In this document: positions 6,901-60,828 of the stretch, piece after piece
Layout: every line of letters begins with the position of its first letter
How positions within the stretch are numbered: the stretch's first letter is position 1
Source of the DNA: Ditibartonella apihabitans
Lineage (GTDB): Bacteria; Pseudomonadota; Alphaproteobacteria; Rhizobiales; Rhizobiaceae
DNA: 64,000 nucleotides
Direction: 5' to 3'
NCBI RefSeq assembly: GCF_002007485.1
Contig: NZ_CP015820.1
Span: forward strand, 682,001-746,000
Position numbers and translations under genes: made by a program
Notes under the pieces: model-generated
Seen by the model: only the letters and a program-made list of their open reading frames with translations
What the model was told of the DNA's origin: nothing
Database searches by the model: none

Positions 6901-8304
6901 TCAACTTGCTCGACGCAATGTCTCGGTCTCTTTCCGACTTTCAGCATGATATTCATCAAGCTTGCGGTAAAGTGTTGAACGACCGATCCCGAGGCGACGG
7001 GCCGCTTCGCTCATGCGTCCACGATAGTGGTTCACTGTGCGTTCAATGATTTCCCGTTCAAGTTCATTATAAGCACGCACCTGACCGTTATCATCAATTA
7101 GATGAACGGAATAACGATCATTTTTTTCGGCTATTTCTACCGGTGCATTGCTTCTGAAATCGGCAAGCTGATTTCCGGTTAGTTGCGGGAAGTCACGAAT
7201 TGTCAAAAGTGGCCCTTGGCTCAGCAATACAGCGCGAAAAAGCACATTTTCCAGTTCACCAACATTCCCTGGCCAATCATGCTGCAATAAAAGCGAAAGT
7301 GCAGAACCTGCCACCCCGTGAACATGCGGCTGCCCACTTTCAACGACAATATGTTCAATGGCACGCTGCGCAATATCGGCAAAATCGTCACGCCGTTCGC
7401 GAAGCGGGGGAATAATTACGTGACATTCTCTCAACAGATCATAGAATTCCTTCAAAAACAGACCGTCTTCGACAAGCCCCTGAAGCCGTGACGTTGAAAT
7501 AGTTGTCAAACGGAACTTGGGCTCTTCACCTTTTTCAGTTTCCTTGCGTTTCTTGAGAAAATCAACCCAGCGTCTCTGCTGATTAATTTCAAGACGATCG
7601 ATCTCGCAAAGACAAATTGTTCCATGGTCAATCGCGTTGATATGCGGCAGAATCTTGGTTTCCCACTTTTTTGCGTCCTGCAGGGGATCAGAAATCGGCA
7701 CACATTGGATACGAACAAATTTACCGGTTGCGTAAGGGCTTTCGTGGTGGATAACGCGGGCAAGTGTCTCTCTACCGGTTCCTTTTTCTCCTTCGATGAG
7801 AAGATTTTTAGTCGATAAAGCAGCTTGTTTTGCCCGTTCAAAAGGCTCTTTCATTGCTTCACTATTTGCGTAAAGGTCAGAGAACCGCAAGTGGTTTTCC
7901 TGTTGGCGACGAATATAATGCACTTCACGCTCATAGGTATTGTTGATTGAGAGATTGCCGAGTGTCACACTCAATCTTAGTGATGTAATCGGATAAACGA
8001 GATAATCAACGGCACCCGCCTTCAGACTTTTCTGAAGGAGTTCCTCATTTTCTACATCGGACATGACAACGAGTGGGGCGGCAAATCCGGTAACGCGGAT
8101 TGTTGAAATGAGATCGGTTCCGCCAAGGTCACTCATCATCAAATCGACCAATGCAAATGAAATATTACGGCGTTTACGCAACAAATCGAGTGTGCGTAAT
8201 CCATTTTCTGCTTCAATTACACGATATCCGAGAGCACGAAGAATGGAAGAAGTGTTGGCTCGTTTACCATAGTCTTCGGCTGCTACTAGTATAGGACCCA
8301 TCAT
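6901..8304 (-). CDS. NtrC-family response regulator with degenerate AAA+ domain and Fis-type HTH
   Basis: Domains in order: an N-terminal receiver (GPILVAAEDYGKR, phospho-acceptor in FALVDLMMSDLGG), an AAA+ domain, and a C-terminal Fis-type helix-turn-helix (MSEAARRLGIGRSTLYRKLDEY). The AAA+ part is odd. Walker A reads GEKGTGRET with Arg in place of the usual Lys, Walker B reads ICLCEID with Cys in place of the first Asp, and the GAFTGA loop that contacts sigma-54 is missing in a shortened segment. It is therefore probably not a sigma-54 activator; it may bind DNA as an ordinary regulator. The track start (8589) would overlap omp10; AAAGGAG just upstream of clustered ATGs (8316, 8313, 8304, 8301) places the real start there, and I chose 8304. 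The exact Met is uncertain. No partner kinase is adjacent. Confidence 0.8.
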   Translation of the reverse strand: MMGPILVAAEDYGKRANTSSILRALGYRVIEAENGLRTLDLLRKRRNISFALVDLMMSDLGGTDLISTIRVTGFAAPLVVMSDVENEELLQKSLKAGAVDYLVYPITSLRLSVTLGNLSINNTYEREVHYIRRQQENHLRFSDLYANSEAMKEPFERAKQAALSTKNLLIEGEKGTGRETLARVIHHESPYATGKFVRIQCVPISDPLQDAKKWETKILPHINAIDHGTICLCEIDRLEINQQRRWVDFLKKRKETEKGEEPKFRLTTISTSRLQGLVEDGLFLKEFYDLLRECHVIIPPLRERRDDFADIAQRAIEHIVVESGQPHVHGVAGSALSLLLQHDWPGNVGELENVLFRAVLLSQGPLLTIRDFPQLTGNQLADFRSNAPVEIAEKNDRYSVHLIDDNGQVRAYNELEREIIERTVNHYRGRMSEAARRLGIGRSTLYRKLDEYHAESRKETETLRRAS

Positions 8305-51836: not shown

Positions 51837-52253
51837 ATGGCACTCCTTGTTTATTATTCGAGCGCGACGGGCAATACCGATTATTTTGTGCAACAAATCG
51901 GTGAACCGTCTTTAAGACTTTTCAAAAAAACAGCAATTCCCAAAGTGTTTGAACCTTATGTTCTGGTGGTACCGACTTACGCCGGTGCCAAAGGCGATGG
52001 AGCAGTGCCCAAAACCGTCATCAATTTTCTCAATGATGAAGAGAACCGGCAATTTCTTAAAGGCGTTATTGCCGGTGGCAATCGTAATTTCGGCTGGGCT
52101 TATGCACTTGCCGGAAAAGTCATCTCTCAAAAGTGTCGTGTGCCCTGGCTTTATAGTTTCGAGCTCAGGGGGACAACAGAAGACGTGAACCTTGTCAGAC
52201 AAGGATTAGGAAAATTATGGAAACAGATAGCCCAGAAAAAACAGACACTTTAG
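51837..52253 (+). CDS. nrdI: Flavodoxin-like NrdI
   Basis: A 138-residue flavodoxin-fold protein that supplies superoxide/oxidant to assemble the dimanganese-tyrosyl radical cofactor of NrdF. The FMN-binding [33 protein letters not shown] and [15 protein letters not shown] are diagnostic. It begins one base after nrdH and overlaps nrdE by 37 bases, so the genes are translationally linked. Confidence 0.95.
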
Positions 52254-54367
52254 ATAGTGACAAAAATTATCATTCATTAAATGCAATGCTCAATCTTTTT
52301 GACGATAATGGGCTTATCCAGTTCGATAAAGATCGTGAAGCCGTGCGGCAATATTTTTTGCAGCATGTCAATCAGAATACGGTATTTTTTCATGATCTTG
52401 AAGAGAAGATCGATTACCTCGTGCGTGAAGGATATTACGAGAAAACCGTTTTTGATTGTTATGATTTTGCTTTTATCAAAAAAGCTTTCAAACGTGCTTA
52501 TGCGTTCAAATTCCGCTTTCCCACATTTTTGGGTGCCTTCAAATATTATACGAGTTACACGCTGAAGACTTTCGACGGGAAAAGATATCTCGAACGTTAC
52601 GAAGATCGTGTCGTTATGGTGGCATTGACACTTGCTGCAGGCGACAAAAAATTTTGCGAAAGGCTTGTCGATGAAATGATGACAGGCCGCTTTCAACCGG
52701 CAACGCCGACATTTCTCAATGCTGGTAAAAAACAACGTGGAGAACTTGTTTCCTGTTTTCTTCTGCGGGTTGAAGACAATATGGAGTCGATCGGTCGCGC
52801 AATCAATTCTTCTTTGCAATTGTCCAAGCGCGGTGGTGGGGTCGCTTTGTGCCTTACAAATATCAGGGAACAAGGCGCACCGATCAAGAAAATACAAAAC
52901 CAGTCGTCCGGAATTGTGCCGGTTATGAAACTTCTTGAAGACGCGTTTTCTTACGCCAATCAATTGGGTGCAAGACAGGGGGCAGGGGCGGTTTATTTAA
53001 GTGCCCATCACCCCGATATTATGCGCTTTCTGGATACCAAGCGGGAAAATGCCGACGAAAAAATCCGCATCAAAACACTTTCCCTTGGGGTGGTCATCCC
53101 CGATATTACTTTCGAGCTTGCACGCAATAACGAGGATATGTACCTTTTCTCACCCTATGATGTAGAGAAAGTCACGGGTAAAGCCTTATCCGACATATCT
53201 TTGAGCGAAAATTATCGCAAATTCGTTGACGATCCGCGCATAACCAAGAAAAAAATCAATGCTCGTGATTTTTTCCAAACTCTGGCCGAAATCCAGTTTG
53301 AATCGGGTTATCCCTATATCGTGTTCGAAGATGCGGTCAATCGCGCCAACCCCATTGCCGGACGCATCAATATGAGCAATCTTTGCTCTGAAATTCTTCA
53401 GGTCAATGAGCCGAGCACATTGAATGCCGATTTGAGCTATCGTCACATCGGTAACGATATTTCGTGCAATCTCGGCTCGCTCAATGTCGCTAAAGCCTTC
53501 CAGTCCAACGATTTCGGCAAAACAGTTGAAACAGCGGTCCGGGCTTTAACAGCGGTTTCCGAAATGAGCGATATTGTTTGTGTGCCATCCATTGAAAAGG
53601 GCAATCGCGAGGCGCATGCTATCGGCCTCGGTCAAATGAATTTGCATGGCTTTCTTGCCAAAGAGCACATTTATTATGGCTCTCCGGAAGCACTCGATTT
53701 CACCAATCTCTATTTTTATACAATTGCCTTTCATGCGTTGAGAAGCTCGAACCTTATTGCCAAAGAAAAGGGTAAAACATTTCAAGGCTTTGAACAATCA
53801 GCCTATGCTGATGGGCGTGCGTTTAAAAAATATCTCACTCAAAAGTTCGAGCCGGAAACACAACGCATCAAACAGCTTTTTGCTGATAGGCATTTCACGA
53901 TCCCTACTGTGAAAGACTGGCAGGAGCTTGAGCAATCGGTGAAAAAATGGGGGCTTTATAATCGTTATTTACAGGCGGTTCCGCCCACCGGCTCGATTTC
54001 CTATATCAATAATGCCACAGCATCCATTCACCCGATTGTTGCAAAAATAGAAATACGCAAAGAAGGAAAAATTGGTCGGGTCTATTATCCGGCACCTTAT
54101 ATGACCAATGATAATCTTGAATATTATCAGGACGCTTATGAAATAGGTCCGGAAAAAATCATTGATACTTATGCCGCAGCCGGACAACATGTCGATCAGG
54201 GCTTGTCATTAACGCTGTTCTTTCCGGATACCGCCACGACGCGCGACATTAATAAAGCGCAAATTTACGCGTGGAAGAAAAAACTCAAAACCATCTATTA
54301 TGTGCGGCTACGCCAAAAGGCCTTGAGCGGAACCGAAGTCGAAACCTGTGTTTCCTGTAGCCTTTAA
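52217..54367 (+). CDS. nrdE: Class Ib ribonucleotide reductase, large subunit
   Basis: Reduces ribonucleoside diphosphates to deoxyribonucleotides. 716 residues. The substrate-site region shows [21 protein letters not shown] (first redox Cys) and [15 protein letters not shown] with the catalytic Cys. The N-x-C-x-E radical motif is seen in that same stretch, and the C-terminal redox pair is in [11 protein letters not shown]. Absence of the long N-terminal ATP-cone of class Ia is typical of NrdE. It overlaps nrdI and precedes nrdF by 12 bases. Confidence 0.97.
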
Positions 54368-54373
54368 GGATAA

Positions 54374-55348
<975 letters not shown>

Positions 55349-55743: not shown

Positions 55744-56658
55744 TTAATTCCCGGAGCGGGCAATCGGAAACCGCGAGAGGTTGACCACACAGGATTCAAT
55801 AATTTCCTGACGATAACGATAGAGTTTAGCCGGCCTACCACCTGTTTGCGTTTCGCGTTCGCCTACTTCTTCGATAATTCCCTGTTGTTCGGTCAAACGA
55901 CGAAAATTCGGTTTATGAAGGCGCCTTCCTATAATCGCTTCTACCGTTTTTTGTAGCTGTAATAATGTGAACTTTTCCGGCAACAGTTCAAAGATCACAG
56001 CTCTATATTTTATTTTCCTTCGGAGCCGTCCAATAGCGGTTGCTAAAATTCGACGGTCATCGGCAAACATTGGCGTTCCCGCAAAAAGATTGCCTCCAGC
56101 TTCGGCAATGAGACCCGCTTCATATAGAATTTCATATCTTTGGAGAATGAAATCTTCGTGCCACGAAAAGCCGTTACATCCGAAAAGAAAAGAAATTCTG
56201 CGTTTCTTGAAGTCACAATGGACTTTATCTTTTTCGGCCCAAACATTGAGCGCTTTTATAATTTCGTCGACACATGGATGTTTTCCACTTCGGCAATCGT
56301 CCCATGGAAAATGCTCGTACCAATCATGCCATTCGGCATTTGGAGAAAACTCGTCTTGCTCACGCACCAAGCCCAGATAGCTGACGGATATTGTTCGCGT
56401 ACTGTTCTCGGCAGAGATAGGCAAACGATTGGAAAATGTGTAAAGTTGTTCGAGAAATCCGACGGGATGACCGGTTTTTGTATTTATCCAGTCACGTAAA
56501 GAAGACTCCAGGCTTTGTTGCCCGAATTCCAACGGTCCGGATGGAAGTTTTTGTTCTGGTCCTACAGTAATAACTTTTGGTTGACCGTTCGTAACTGCGG
56601 TAATAACGGCAATAAGTTCGATTTTTGAAAGCGCTGATGGGGTAGTCAAGATCGTCAT
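55744..56658 (-). CDS. nadQ: NAD metabolism regulator of the NadQ (COG4111) type
   Basis: 304 residues. The N-terminal two thirds resemble a Nudix-fold effector domain without a working Nudix box (SSLRDWINTKTGHPVGFLEQ, LYTFSNRL, ISVSYLGLV, WYEHFPWDD). The C-terminus is a winged helix (KFTLLQLQKTVEAIIGRRLH, TQTGGRPAKLYRY). This layout is that of COG4111 proteins, called NadQ in Hyphomicrobiales, predicted to repress NAD synthesis genes. No nad gene is adjacent, so the target lies elsewhere. NrtR, a related Nudix-wHTH repressor, is the alternative name. The start lacks a strong ribosome binding site. Confidence 0.75.
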   Translation of the reverse strand: MTILTTPSALSKIELIAVITAVTNGQPKVITVGPEQKLPSGPLEFGQQSLESSLRDWINTKTGHPVGFLEQLYTFSNRLPISAENSTRTISVSYLGLVREQDEFSPNAEWHDWYEHFPWDDCRSGKHPCVDEIIKALNVWAEKDKVHCDFKKRRISFLFGCNGFSWHEDFILQRYEILYEAGLIAEAGGNLFAGTPMFADDRRILATAIGRLRRKIKYRAVIFELLPEKFTLLQLQKTVEAIIGRRLHKPNFRRLTEQQGIIEEVGERETQTGGRPAKLYRYRQEIIESCVVNLSRFPIARSGN

Positions 56659-57807: not shown

Positions 57808-59283
57808 TCAAAAGTTGATTTTTGCCTTCGCAAGTTGCAAGCTTTGTTCGAACCTTGTAGTTTCTTGTTTCTTCAATTCTTCCGATTTGATCCGGAGAAG
57901 ATATGACGGGTGAAAAGTGACAAGCACCGGAATTTTTTCTTCTGTCTCGATTATTTTACCCACCAAACCGCTTAACGGCTCGTTCAAATCTGTGAGTGAG
58001 AACAGGGCGGTTTTCCCCATGGCAACGATAAGCTTCGGTTTGACGATGTCGATTTCTTTCAAAAGCCACCAGCGACAATGCTCGACCTCGCTCCTGTCTG
58101 CTCTTTTATGAAGGCGCTTGTGACCTTTGAGTTCATATTTGAAATGTTTGACAGCGTTGGTGATGTAAACCTCATCCCGTTTTAGTCCTACCCTATGGGC
58201 AGCTTTGTCAAACACTTGCCCTGCAGGACCGATAAATGGCCGACCAACGAGATCTTCACGATCGCCCGGTTGTTCTCCGACAATCATTAGAGAAGCATTT
58301 TCAGGCCCTTCGCCACAGACAGCCTGCGTTGATGAACAATGCAATGGGCAACTTTTGCATGATTTGATACCTTTATTGAGATCATCCAAAGTTTTAAGCG
58401 TTGCCCGCGACTTCAAACTCGTTCGAATGACATTCTCGGCATTTCTTTCCGTTAAACGGGAATGAAAGAGCGGAGGTGGCAGAACCGGTTGTTTTTCCAT
58501 TGTTTCAATGCGCGTTTCCGCATTATCAACGAGACTATCGATGATTTCCGCTTCCGGAAGGTTGCTCCAGTATTTTTTCGGCATATGACTTTGCATGGTT
58601 TTGACTTTCAGTCTTGCCGGATTGAAAATGCTGGAAAAGTAGGTTTTCCAGAGTTCTTCGGTTTCATCTTTATTTTGTGGCTTTTTAAATATCGGTTCGC
58701 CAAAAAACAGTCTTTTGTTAAAATAGAATGCACTGCCTTTCGGCGTGAGAATTTGCCAATCCATGTCGCTGAAACGCCGACAGAAAAACGGTATCGCTTC
58801 CGCAATAATGAAATGTTGAGGTTCATACCAGGCGGTAAAACAACGCCTGAATGTGTCGTCGCCAAGGCTGGCAATTTCCTTGAAACGTAAAAATGCATGC
58901 ATATGGTGGATGTCATGGCAAACAGCTTTTTGCCGTGATAGGGCTGTGGCGGTGTCAATGTCGTAAATTTTTTCAAGAACCGTTTTATCGTGCTGCAAGC
59001 GATAAAGAAGGCGGTATAAAAGGGCCGACGAATCTTCGCTTTCGTGGCAGATGACATTTTTCGCAAGATTGATGAACTGCTTTGGCACCAGAAATTCTTG
59101 GCTTCGTTGTGAAGGCTGATATTTTTCTGAAGGCGGAGAGGCGGGCTCGCTGTCAAATAATGTCGGGGCCGAATGGTAATGCCAAAAAACATCTTCCGGA
59201 CGCATTTCTTCCTGCAATAGCAAACGCGCTATCGTTCGCCACTCTTCAAAATCTCCCTGCTTTTTCAAAACAATCGTTTTCAT
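57808..59283 (-). CDS. UdgX-type uracil-DNA glycosylase fused to an N-terminal DUF4130 domain
   Basis: 491 residues. Residues about 1-250 form a DUF4130 domain (YRLLYRLQHDKTVLEKIYD, HDIHHMHAFLRFKE, FAAWYEP-like block). The C-terminal part is a family-4-like uracil glycosylase with Fe-S cysteines (CKSCPLHC), GEQPGDREDLVGRPFIGPAG and HPSYLLR. The loop KRLHKRADRSEVEHC holds His392 at the place where mycobacterial UdgX has the His that bonds covalently to the abasic site after uracil removal. So this may be a suicide-type uracil scavenger. It overlaps the radical SAM gene by 4 bases, a pairing seen in other Hyphomicrobiales as I recall. Confidence 0.9.
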   Translation of the reverse strand: MKTIVLKKQGDFEEWRTIARLLLQEEMRPEDVFWHYHSAPTLFDSEPASPPSEKYQPSQRSQEFLVPKQFINLAKNVICHESEDSSALLYRLLYRLQHDKTVLEKIYDIDTATALSRQKAVCHDIHHMHAFLRFKEIASLGDDTFRRCFTAWYEPQHFIIAEAIPFFCRRFSDMDWQILTPKGSAFYFNKRLFFGEPIFKKPQNKDETEELWKTYFSSIFNPARLKVKTMQSHMPKKYWSNLPEAEIIDSLVDNAETRIETMEKQPVLPPPLFHSRLTERNAENVIRTSLKSRATLKTLDDLNKGIKSCKSCPLHCSSTQAVCGEGPENASLMIVGEQPGDREDLVGRPFIGPAGQVFDKAAHRVGLKRDEVYITNAVKHFKYELKGHKRLHKRADRSEVEHCRWWLLKEIDIVKPKLIVAMGKTALFSLTDLNEPLSGLVGKIIETEEKIPVLVTFHPSYLLRIKSEELKKQETTRFEQSLQLAKAKINF

Positions 59284-60515
59284 GATGAAAAAAGATCAAG
59301 TTGAGTGGGGCGCGCACGAAAACGCTCGGCAAGGTGTGAACTGTCGAGAAGGTTTTTAGGCGTCCAGCGTTCGGCAGTCACAAACGGCTTTATTTTTTGA
59401 AGGCTGATATGAAAGGTTTTCAAATCTGAAAAATCGAGCCGCTTGAACCGGCGTGCTACCAATATCCGTTTAACATTGCGCACACCAAGGCCGGGAACAC
59501 GTAACAACATTTCCTTGTCGGCTTTATTGATGTCAACCGGAAAGAGATGCCGGTTTTGTAATGCCCAGGCGAGTTTCGGGTCAAATTCAAGATCAAGCAT
59601 GCCACCATTTGTTTTCGCGGTCAGCTCTTCCATTGCAAAGCCGTAAAACCGATAAAGCCAATCGGCTTGATAAAGCCGGTGTTCCCTTAAAAGCGGCGGG
59701 CGCTTGACGGGAAGCAGGTTTGAAGCATCCGGAATCGGACTGAATGCCGAATAATAAACGCGTTTCAGCCGATAACCCGAATAAAGCTCGGCGCTTGATT
59801 GCAGTATTGTCGCATCATTGGCATCGTCGGCACCGATGATCATTTGGGTAGATTGCCCTGCGGGCGCGAAACGTTGCGTTTTTTTCGTCTGTAATGTCGC
59901 GTCTTTGGAGGCTTCTATATCAATCCGAACATTCGCCATAGCCTGCTTGATTGTCAGGATCTTTTTTTGCGGAGCAAAGCGGTTAATGCTTTTTTCTGTT
60001 GGCAGTTCGACATTGATCGACAAGCGATCTGCGTAACGTCCGGCTTCTTTGATCAGCGCGTCCGAAGCATCCGGAATGGTTTTTAAATGGATATAGCCGC
60101 CGAAATGGTGGATGGTTCGCAAATCGCGGGCAACTTTAACCAATTCCTCCATTGTGTGGTCCGGAGAACGGATAATGCCGGACGAAAGAAACAAGCCTTC
60201 TATGTAATTTCTGCGGTAAAATTCGAGCGTCAAAAACACCACTTCATCGGTACTAAAACGCGCCCGCTCGACATTGCTTGAAGAGCGGTTGACACAATAG
60301 GCACAATCAAAGATACAAAAATTGGTGAGTAGAATTTTTAACAGCGAAACGCAGCGCCCGTCAGGCGTGAAGGAATGGCAAATTCCCATATTCGCCGTTG
60401 ACCCCAAGCCGCTTTTTGTTGGCGACTGACGCGTTGAACCGCTTGATGCACAGGAGGCATCATATTTGGCAGCATCTGCCAGAATTGCCAATTTTTGTTT
60501 GAGCGTTTTGACCAT
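59280..60515 (-). CDS. Putative DNA modification/repair radical SAM protein
   Basis: 411 residues. The radical SAM cluster motif is CxxxCxxC in NFCIFDCAYCVNR (Cys67, 71, 74). GICHSFTPDGRCVSLLKIL and SSGIIRSPDHTMEELVKVA are marks of the family annotated as 'putative DNA modification/repair radical SAM protein'. A helix-hairpin-helix near the C-terminus (LLRVPGLGVRNVKRILVARRF) binds DNA. Its stop overlaps the UdgX start by four bases (ATGA), so the two are co-translated and probably act on the same lesion. The reaction is unknown to me. Confidence 0.87.
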   Translation of the reverse strand: MVKTLKQKLAILADAAKYDASCASSGSTRQSPTKSGLGSTANMGICHSFTPDGRCVSLLKILLTNFCIFDCAYCVNRSSSNVERARFSTDEVVFLTLEFYRRNYIEGLFLSSGIIRSPDHTMEELVKVARDLRTIHHFGGYIHLKTIPDASDALIKEAGRYADRLSINVELPTEKSINRFAPQKKILTIKQAMANVRIDIEASKDATLQTKKTQRFAPAGQSTQMIIGADDANDATILQSSAELYSGYRLKRVYYSAFSPIPDASNLLPVKRPPLLREHRLYQADWLYRFYGFAMEELTAKTNGGMLDLEFDPKLAWALQNRHLFPVDINKADKEMLLRVPGLGVRNVKRILVARRFKRLDFSDLKTFHISLQKIKPFVTAERWTPKNLLDSSHLAERFRARPTQLDLFSS

Positions 60516-60828
60516 TTTTGTTCACTATTTGTTCTGTGCACGAATATAGACGTGAAGTAGAGGAAGTAAAGGAAAAACAGGAAGTCACGGTGAACTCAAA
60601 TCAACATTTTTCCAGAGGGCAAATTCAAGTCAGTTAATTTTGTTCCAATTGGTCAGACTGTTTCGCATTGTGTTTCACTTTGTAACGATATTGCGAGACA
60701 TTGAACAAAAGAGACTTTGGAGAGACCGGCCCGTTTACACCGATAACAAGGCAATTTTTCGAGAGTAAAAAATTTAAAGAGCAGCATGACGAGTTTTTTA
60801 TGCAGAAATCGTTCTCACAAAGAAGGTT
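60516..60828. other. Gap between the repair operon and nhaA
   Basis: About 313 bases without a gene. It should hold the promoter of the radical SAM/UdgX pair and the 3' end of nhaA. I found no damage-response (LexA) box I would defend. Confidence 0.4.

Follow-up and report, generated by a model that had tools for sequence, protein, structure and literature searches.

A putative SOS-controlled radical SAM–DUF4130 operon carrying an optional UdgX domain in Ditibartonella apihabitans

Bacterial two-gene loci combining a radical S-adenosylmethionine protein (radical SAM; rSAM hereafter) with a uracil-DNA glycosylase (UDG) are known as the COG4277-COG1573 system and are represented in NCBIfam by the models TIGR03916, TIGR03915 and TIGR03914, where we take COG4277 to correspond to TIGR03916. 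In a figure legend, DUF4130 is named as a predicted mutagenesis-related enzyme linked with an SplB-like rSAM and a UDG (legend in PMC3765255), and a passage of PMC8565304 places the COG1573-COG4277 pair under SOS-type motifs in Bacteroidetes, citing Verrucomicrobia and Alphaproteobacteria as well. For the covalent glycosylase UdgX, the sections of PMC10359453 drawn on here give R107 and H109 together with Q53 as the signature and discuss the roles of E52 and Q53. Here we describe an rSAM gene and an overlapping DUF4130-UdgX fusion gene in a 64,000-nucleotide stretch of the Ditibartonella apihabitans genome (assembly GCF_002007485.1, contig NZ_CP015820.1, positions 682,001 to 746,000; hereafter the window).

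All three NCBIfam models matched above their curated cut-offs, with no difference in kind from the named system; the locus thus adds to a family that already has a name but is uncharacterised, and is no new system. The open-access literature yielded no experimental work on either the rSAM or the DUF4130 protein. A sequence-only reading of the window had regarded the locus as not described; this stands for its chemistry in the literature searched, but not for the pair and its SOS control, both of which are in print. Three features deserve follow-up, namely a clamp-type tail, a set of extra cysteines and a logic centred on DUF4130; none of them is mentioned in the portions of the COG4277-COG1573 literature at hand. 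On balance, we judge that the two-gene SOS operon probably encodes a replication-linked, clamp-tethered rSAM-DUF4130 module for the processing of DNA lesions, in which UdgX is optional and would trap uracil or abasic sites.

Partners of the radical SAM protein

Co-occurrence was determined in even draws from two phyla, comprising 249 Pseudomonadota and 115 Verrucomicrobiota genomes. Above-cut-off matches for rSAM, DUF4130 and UdgX were present in 56, 59 and 55 Pseudomonadota genomes, respectively. DUF4130 was found in all 56 rSAM genomes and UdgX in 43 of them; the remaining 13 had no UdgX above cut-off anywhere, yet carried DUF4130 downstream of rSAM. Only 3 of the 59 DUF4130 genomes had no rSAM. 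As a control, all three models also matched in Caulobacter vibrioides, the species of the laboratory strain NA1000. In Verrucomicrobiota, rSAM and DUF4130 passed the cut-off in the same 7 genomes, none of which has UdgX above cut-off, while UdgX passed it in 3 other genomes, none with rSAM above cut-off. Across both phyla, DUF4130 was located on the same contig and strand as rSAM and downstream of it in 63/63 genomes, and UdgX was present in 43/63; in six of these 63 genomes more than 400 bases (maximum 3,075) separate the rSAM and DUF4130 matches. The constant partner of rSAM is DUF4130, not UdgX, which is an optional extra. The sequence-only reading had called for a survey of co-occurrence and would take frequent separation of the two genes as a refutation: this holds for UdgX, which does occur without rSAM (12 of the 55 Pseudomonadota UdgX genomes lack it above cut-off), but not for DUF4130, from which rSAM was not found apart in these genomes.

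Consistent results were obtained for the loci of relatives (the best 80 of 592 confirmed, hence mostly alphaproteobacterial), where a DUF4130 match followed rSAM on the same strand in 79/80. The exception (L091, from genome G250, which lies outside both samples) is read as an assembly gap because its contig stops 74 bases past rSAM; a search of the whole G250 genome did not find DUF4130 either. The pairing at 79/80 loci is not due to chance, and the earlier view of a conserved pair, probably acting in one pathway, is supported. The spacing from rSAM to DUF4130 was -4 bases in 24, -1 in 22 and at most 60 in 72 of 81 loci (kept out of 87; a few large negative gaps reflect over-long starts of open reading frames, ORFs). 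A third conserved operon partner was considered and rejected, as any other neighbour cluster was shared by at most 6 of 87 loci; the four most frequent ones were a histidine kinase (6 loci), a LysR-type regulator (5), another kinase (5) and DnaE2 (5).

The history of the fusion was followed on an rSAM tree of 107 proteins (98 of 117 rSAM loci, 6 of 7 further Verrucomicrobiota loci and 3 sister proteins; of the 19 rSAM loci left off, 7 were excluded by name and 12 had no delimited DUF4130 ORF). The UDG-fusion state changes approximately ten times on this tree, at least 6 changes being forced by well supported branches. At the first split within the family, all 8 members on one side are unfused (a Bacillota plasmid, 4 Verrucomicrobiota, 2 phage-labelled records and 1 Pseudomonadota). 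Given the genomes with rSAM and DUF4130 and no UdgX, and the repeated changes of fusion state, rSAM must have a job that needs no UdgX.

This bears on the suggestion, made in the sequence-only reading, that rSAM prepares the base attacked by UdgX or resolves the UdgX-DNA crosslink. Such a role would fit an overlapping operon in which UdgX is fused to DUF4130, the partner that is always there, and it would fit that 50/50 fused proteins keep H392 together with the remaining catalytic residues named below. Against it, 20 of the 63 rSAM-DUF4130 genomes have no UdgX above cut-off, UDG-free operons retain LexA boxes, and rSAM is absent above cut-off from the 12 Pseudomonadota UdgX genomes mentioned above and from 3/3 of those in Verrucomicrobiota. 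In view of the 20 UdgX-free genomes and the many fusion changes it is not supported as a general role, and we consider it improbable; it may be confined to the fused lineages. Some TIGR03914 match, including those below cut-off, was present in 190/249 Pseudomonadota and 109/115 Verrucomicrobiota genomes. The below-cut-off matches were taken for family-4-like UDGs and are common, and ordinary uracil repair is therefore not in question.

Within DUF4130, the residues D108, H126, R133, E154, R170, D206, N221 and R224 were invariant in 23/23 proteins and would suit a catalytic or nucleotide-binding role. The DUF4130 profile gave no match to PDB sequences up to E 10. In a PDB structure search with the model of the fused protein, the listed rows cover the UDG part; among viral proteins, those top rows that carry a name are UDGs or polymerases containing a UDG. 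Beside distant rSAM proteins, a local profile detected DUF4130 at L113, L115, L116 and L117; it was detected neither at L114, of the sister family described below, nor in the 774 bases following L111, and L112 stops within rSAM. Relatives of rSAM were also found in 10/50,697 phage records. A phage system was rejected, as one annotated phage-labelled record (L113, CAKLQH020000003.1, labelled Acinetobacter phage MD-2021a) carries glyS, glyQ and aroE around the rSAM pair and looks like a mislabelled bacterial chromosome.

Tail, cysteines and fold of the radical SAM protein

The rSAM protein of the window ends in ...ARPTQLDLFSS. The part of PMC4549789 used here gives QLxLF as the bacterial clamp-binding consensus and describes it as commonly C-terminal. 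Tails were compared among 117 rSAM proteins, which include the window's own (L001), the sister-family protein L114 and some closely related proteins (with 114 distinct tails in 116 proteins). The pattern Q[LMAIV]x[LMI][FLIWM] was present within the last 18 residues of 96/117 proteins and the strict form Q[LM][SDEA]L[FL] in 79/117. By comparison, the broad and strict patterns were found in 3/598 and 0/598 neighbouring ORFs and in 2.2% and 0.3% of shuffled tails, respectively. With a looser pattern applied to the last 30 residues, 109/116 proteins fit (QLGFGF, QGSLF, QLSLAL and similar). The residues immediately N-terminal of the motif are more variable than its Q, L and L positions. These findings suggest that rSAM may bind the sliding clamp via its tail. 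No paper joining a clamp-binding motif with a radical SAM protein was found in the open-access literature.

The motif also bears on a further possibility, that rSAM is an activase which puts a radical or a covalent modification on DUF4130, the latter being the actual DNA enzyme. The one-to-one partnership would be expected of such a pair, DUF4130 without rSAM is rare (3/59), and PFL-AE activase folds are among the structural matches of rSAM. However, the clamp motif and the putative helix-hairpin-helix are situated on rSAM, with the motif in 0/100 DUF4130 proteins, and the three DUF4130 genes without rSAM would have to function unmodified. We therefore give the activase idea little weight.

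In addition to the CxxxCxxC motif (C67, C71 and C74) that the sequence-only reading had correctly recognised, the rSAM protein contains three N-terminal cysteines, C22, C46 and C55. The strict cysteine/SSG pattern was present in 120/123 family members, and the 3 misses differ only in the SSG after C22. Lipoyl synthase and MiaB are auxiliary-cluster enzymes, and the three extra cysteines recall them. We hypothesize that C22, C46 and C55 form an auxiliary iron-sulphur (Fe-S) cluster or metal site.

The rSAM model (mean predicted local distance difference test, pLDDT, of 80) has the rSAM barrel. HydE and lipoyl synthase were the top entries among the 50 structural matches listed (Z about 17-18 over ~210-226 residues); they share the barrel with the window protein and differ from it in having only ~12-15% identity and in their substrates. 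A profile match of the helix-hairpin-helix region to a ComEA-type protein was obtained at E=0.0055. An rSAM protein of this kind might be a direct-reversal enzyme like spore photoproduct lyase that repairs a pyrimidine lesion, which would be a special case of the clamp-tethered module. The legend in PMC3765255, where the rSAM is called SplB-like and linked with DUF4130 and UDG, speaks for this, as do the SOS-type control and the likely DNA targeting. On the other hand, spore photoproduct lyase appeared neither among the NCBIfam matches listed nor among PDB sequence matches up to E 1. It is also not among the 50 structural matches listed, where HydE and lipoyl synthase take the top places, although such lists do not exclude other families. 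Direct reversal is rated as unlikely, though slightly less so than the activase idea.

A sister helix-hairpin-helix rSAM family is present in Verrucomicrobiota and Gemmatirosa (L128-L147 and L114). It shares ~33-40% identity and the CxxxCxxC motif, and its Verrucomicrobiota members score 245-295 bits to TIGR03916. It differs in that DUF4130 was not found above cut-off in 20 Verrucomicrobiota genomes (of Gemmatirosa only the plasmid was searched), and in that 0/20 members have the C46/C55 pattern, all 20 carrying CxC at the place of C22, and 0/20 a clamp tail, even with the looser pattern. One sister copy, L134, adjoins a family-4-like UDG.

LexA boxes and links to the mutasome

Upstream regions were compared at 116 loci, L114 being dropped from this count. 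An alphaproteobacterial LexA box was found within 250 bases 5' of rSAM at 98/116 loci, compared with 28/590 neighbouring ORFs and 2.9% of random windows, and in 64 of these 98 the box begins 16-23 bases ahead of the rSAM start codon. The same type of box is found 5' of recA and lexA in the window's genome. The bare motif GTTCN7GTTC is weak, with 4 sites in the window versus 2.2 expected; the other three, at 7030, 46269 and 56393 (the last inside an NrtR-like ORF), may mean nothing given that expectation. The alphaproteobacterial box was missing at 18 loci, namely L002, L025, L026, L030, L034, L054, L074, L090, L091, L099, L100, L102, L103, L110, L113, L115, L116 and L117, of which only L034, L054 and L110 are alphaproteobacterial by name; the other 15 belong to other groups or have an unknown host. 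The Pseudomonadota sample includes 18 rSAM genomes that are not alphaproteobacterial; a different operator, CTGTN8ACAG, was present 5' of rSAM in 12 of them, compared with 8.4% of random windows from 15 of those 18 loci (slightly looser pattern, true sites included). LexA boxes also precede the UDG-free operons L007, L010, L031, L038, L048, L062, L157, L158, L160, L161, L165, L166 and L172. That orthologous operons are preceded by two operator types unrelated to each other would be difficult to account for unless LexA control had been selected. We infer, in agreement with PMC8565304, that the operon is induced by the SOS response through LexA. At L025, L026, L074, L090 and L099 (Xanthomonadaceae-type), which have no LexA box of the types tried, an upstream palindrome GTCTCA-N5-TGAGAC was noticed by eye and is perhaps another operator.

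In some lineages the module is joined to imuA-imuB-dnaE2, the genes of the SOS mutasome. At L096 (Alteraurantiacibacter), imuA-like, imuB-like, rSAM, DUF4130-UdgX and dnaE2 genes follow each other on one strand; at L101, imuA-like and imuB-like genes precede the pair, and at L089 dnaE2 follows it. The mutasome cluster is divergent from the pair at L086 and L087 (Bradyrhizobium) and at L053 (Henriciella; imuB-like/dnaE2). In total, a mutasome gene was found near rSAM at 12/117 loci, within flanking sequences that in many cases span just 1.5 kb. Each of the 3 Pseudomonadota DUF4130 genes without rSAM is oriented divergently to an adjacent imuA-like gene, and a LexA box lies between the two. DnaE2 was present in 48/56 rSAM genomes compared with 69/193 others, and dnaE2 lay within 2.5 kb of rSAM in 8 of the 48 genomes having both. 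This joining fits an action beside translesion synthesis. The two systems share LexA-type boxes and, in some lineages, adjacency or a common cluster; they differ in their enzymes, and 8/56 rSAM genomes have no DnaE2 above cut-off.

The SOS-type operators and the linkage to the mutasome also speak against a DNA base-modification system with an epigenetic or anti-restriction role, as does the lack of a third conserved neighbour in 87 loci. Such a system would accord with the NCBIfam name 'DNA modification/repair', but we regard it as very improbable.

Based on these data, we tentatively put forward a more specific form of the clamp-tethered module, a possibility that falls short of being probable: rSAM riding the sliding clamp and DUF4130 as a lesion handler would form the radical-chemistry arm of the ImuA-ImuB-DnaE2 mutasome, with a self-crosslinking UdgX trap gained and lost repeatedly.

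Several observations weigh against the module as proposed. The clamp motif and the LexA boxes are sequence matches. The clamp pattern is missing in 21/117 tails, mostly owing to variants outside the printed consensus (QLGFGF, QGSLF), and only 3/7 Verrucomicrobiota TIGR03916 loci fit the first pattern (6/7 the looser one). Six of the 18 non-alphaproteobacterial genomes gave no exact match to the LexA box types tried, 3 being one base off and 3 (L002, L025 and L026) having none. The helix-hairpin-helix named in the sequence-only reading does match Pfam HHH_3, but with 22.2 bits (E=1.5e-4), below the cut-off of 27. In the rSAM model the stretches 22-45 and 48-54 are below pLDDT 50; residues 22-54 being of low confidence, the auxiliary-cluster idea draws on conservation for its support. 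As to the mutasome, lineage confounds the association with DnaE2, and the 8 cases of nearby dnaE2 are of limited independence, since they all fall into two family groups (f3 and f12). The 8 rSAM genomes mentioned above, with DnaE2 not reaching the cut-off, show that the mutasome is dispensable for the module, and in the window's genome dnaE2 is 614 kb away. Moreover, the ImuA and ImuB assignments are below the NCBIfam cut-offs and are based partly on position before DnaE2, which is over its cut-off.

UdgX domain, layout of the locus and proposed mechanism

The UdgX half matched M. smegmatis UdgX with E 2e-38. In the alignment, the R-loop HKRLH is placed on KRRIH of the M. smegmatis protein, so that H392 corresponds to H109 and R390 to R107, as the sequence-only reading had anticipated for His392. 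In an alignment of 50 DUF4130-UdgX proteins, the window's included, E337, N376, R390, H392, H458 and R464 were constant in 50/50 and Q338 was kept in 49/50. The two proteins are alike in motif A (GEQPG), N376, R390/H392, H458 and R464 as well as in fold. The AlphaFold model containing the UdgX half (mean pLDDT 89) superimposes on the UdgX-DNA structure 6ajo_A with Z 31.1 and a root-mean-square deviation of 1.2 over 195 residues, as expected for a member of the UDG superfamily. Unlike M. smegmatis UdgX, the window's domain is fused behind DUF4130, its R-loop differs in sequence, and it is two residues shorter before the R-loop in the alignment. Motif B, HPSYLLR, fits the printed HPS(S/A)(L/V)(L/V)R except for Y461 in place of S/A; tyrosine is present here in 33/50 fused proteins. 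By the R107, H109 and Q53 signature of PMC10359453 and by predicted fold, the domain appears to be a UdgX of the covalent type, despite Y461 in motif B.

The ligands of the UdgX 4Fe-4S cluster are presumably three cysteines and one histidine, corresponding to C309, C312, H380 and C403 in the window protein; the full set was present in 43/50 fused proteins. All four are changed in L046, L066, L085 and L098 and some of them in L047, L092 and L107, while H392 is retained in all 50; cluster-free UdgX domains may exist. Elsewhere, a stand-alone UdgX match was observed ~55 bases from a converging dnaE2 match (G182:C13:136369-140083) in a genome with neither rSAM nor DUF4130 above cut-off.

The features of the locus are listed in Table 1. 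The overlap of the two genes and the joining of UdgX to DUF4130 in one protein were found as the sequence-only reading had described them, the overlap reading ATGA on the minus strand.

Table 1. Features of the rSAM/DUF4130-UdgX locus (positions within the window).
Feature	Position	Strand	Evidence or remark
rSAM gene, 411 amino acids (aa), TIGR03916 rSAM_link_UDG	59280..60515	-	NCBIfam 586.1 bits (cut-off 343.5); Pfam Radical_SAM PF04055 40.1 bits, over cut-off
DUF4130-UdgX fusion gene, 491 aa	57808..59283	-	NCBIfam TIGR03915 184.3 bits (cut-off 112.25) and TIGR03914 279.8 bits, both over cut-off
ATGA stop-start overlap, rSAM/DUF4130-UdgX	59280..59283	-	sequence
Alphaproteobacterial LexA (SOS) box GTTCACTATTTGTTC	60520..60534		motif match, 4 bases 5' of the rSAM start codon
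rSAM N-terminal segment with extra cysteines C22, C46, C55	60351..60452	-	family conservation; possible auxiliary Fe-S cluster or metal site
Canonical rSAM motif CxxxCxxC (C67, C71, C74)	60294..60317	-	invariant in family alignment
Putative DNA-binding helix-hairpin-helix, rSAM aa 327-358	59442..59537	-	HHH_3 below curated cut-off
Sliding-clamp-binding-like motif QLDLF, rSAM aa 405-409 of 411	59289..59303	-	consensus QLxLF (PMC4549789)
DUF4130 / TIGR03915 domain, aa 8-245	58549..59262	-	TIGR03915 184.3 bits; PF13566 128.1 bits (cut-off 27)
UdgX / TIGR03914 domain, aa 248-484	57832..58542	-	profile match; predicted fold resembles 6ajo
UdgX motif A GEQPG, aa 336-340 (E337 = E52, Q338 = Q53)	58264..58278	-	alignment
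UdgX R-loop HKRLH, H392 aligned with DNA-linking H109	58108..58122	-	alignment

Elsewhere in the window, a ribonucleotide reductase small chain is encoded at 54380-55348 on the plus strand, preceded by a 716-aa ORF that looks large-chain-like by eye (52217-55348 together); these genes face the NrtR-like regulator ORF on the minus strand (55744-56658). In a relative, L108, rSAM and DUF4130-UdgX are separated by a gene with a below-cut-off match (41 bits, cut-off 190) to the PA2171 ribosome-binding persister family (L108:7259-7750), and an ORF of about the same length occupies the matching position in L111.

In the clamp-tethered module that we favour, DNA damage would inactivate LexA and thereby release transcription at the box ahead of rSAM. 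The rSAM protein would reach DNA by its C-terminal sliding-clamp motif and its helix-hairpin-helix and, together with DUF4130, would perform a radical reaction on damaged DNA, possibly aided by an extra metal site formed by C22, C46 and C55. Where present, UdgX would, by homology, excise uracil and bond through H392 to the abasic sugar, such that uracil or abasic sites near error-prone synthesis would be trapped and not cut.

The rSAM-DUF4130 pair occurs in 56/249 sampled Pseudomonadota genomes, and no study of its reaction was found. Together, the constancy of DUF4130, the clamp-type tail and the SOS boxes turn the vague label 'DNA modification/repair' into testable predictions, namely that rSAM binds the clamp, that the substrate is linked to replication, and that mutants of the pair resemble those of the mutasome in phenotype. 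They also suggest a cellular role for UdgX as a trap for uracil or abasic sites in SOS synthesis. If the mutasome form of the proposal is true, rSAM would be a dedicated part of SOS translesion synthesis, and DUF4130 an unrecognised lesion-handling enzyme.

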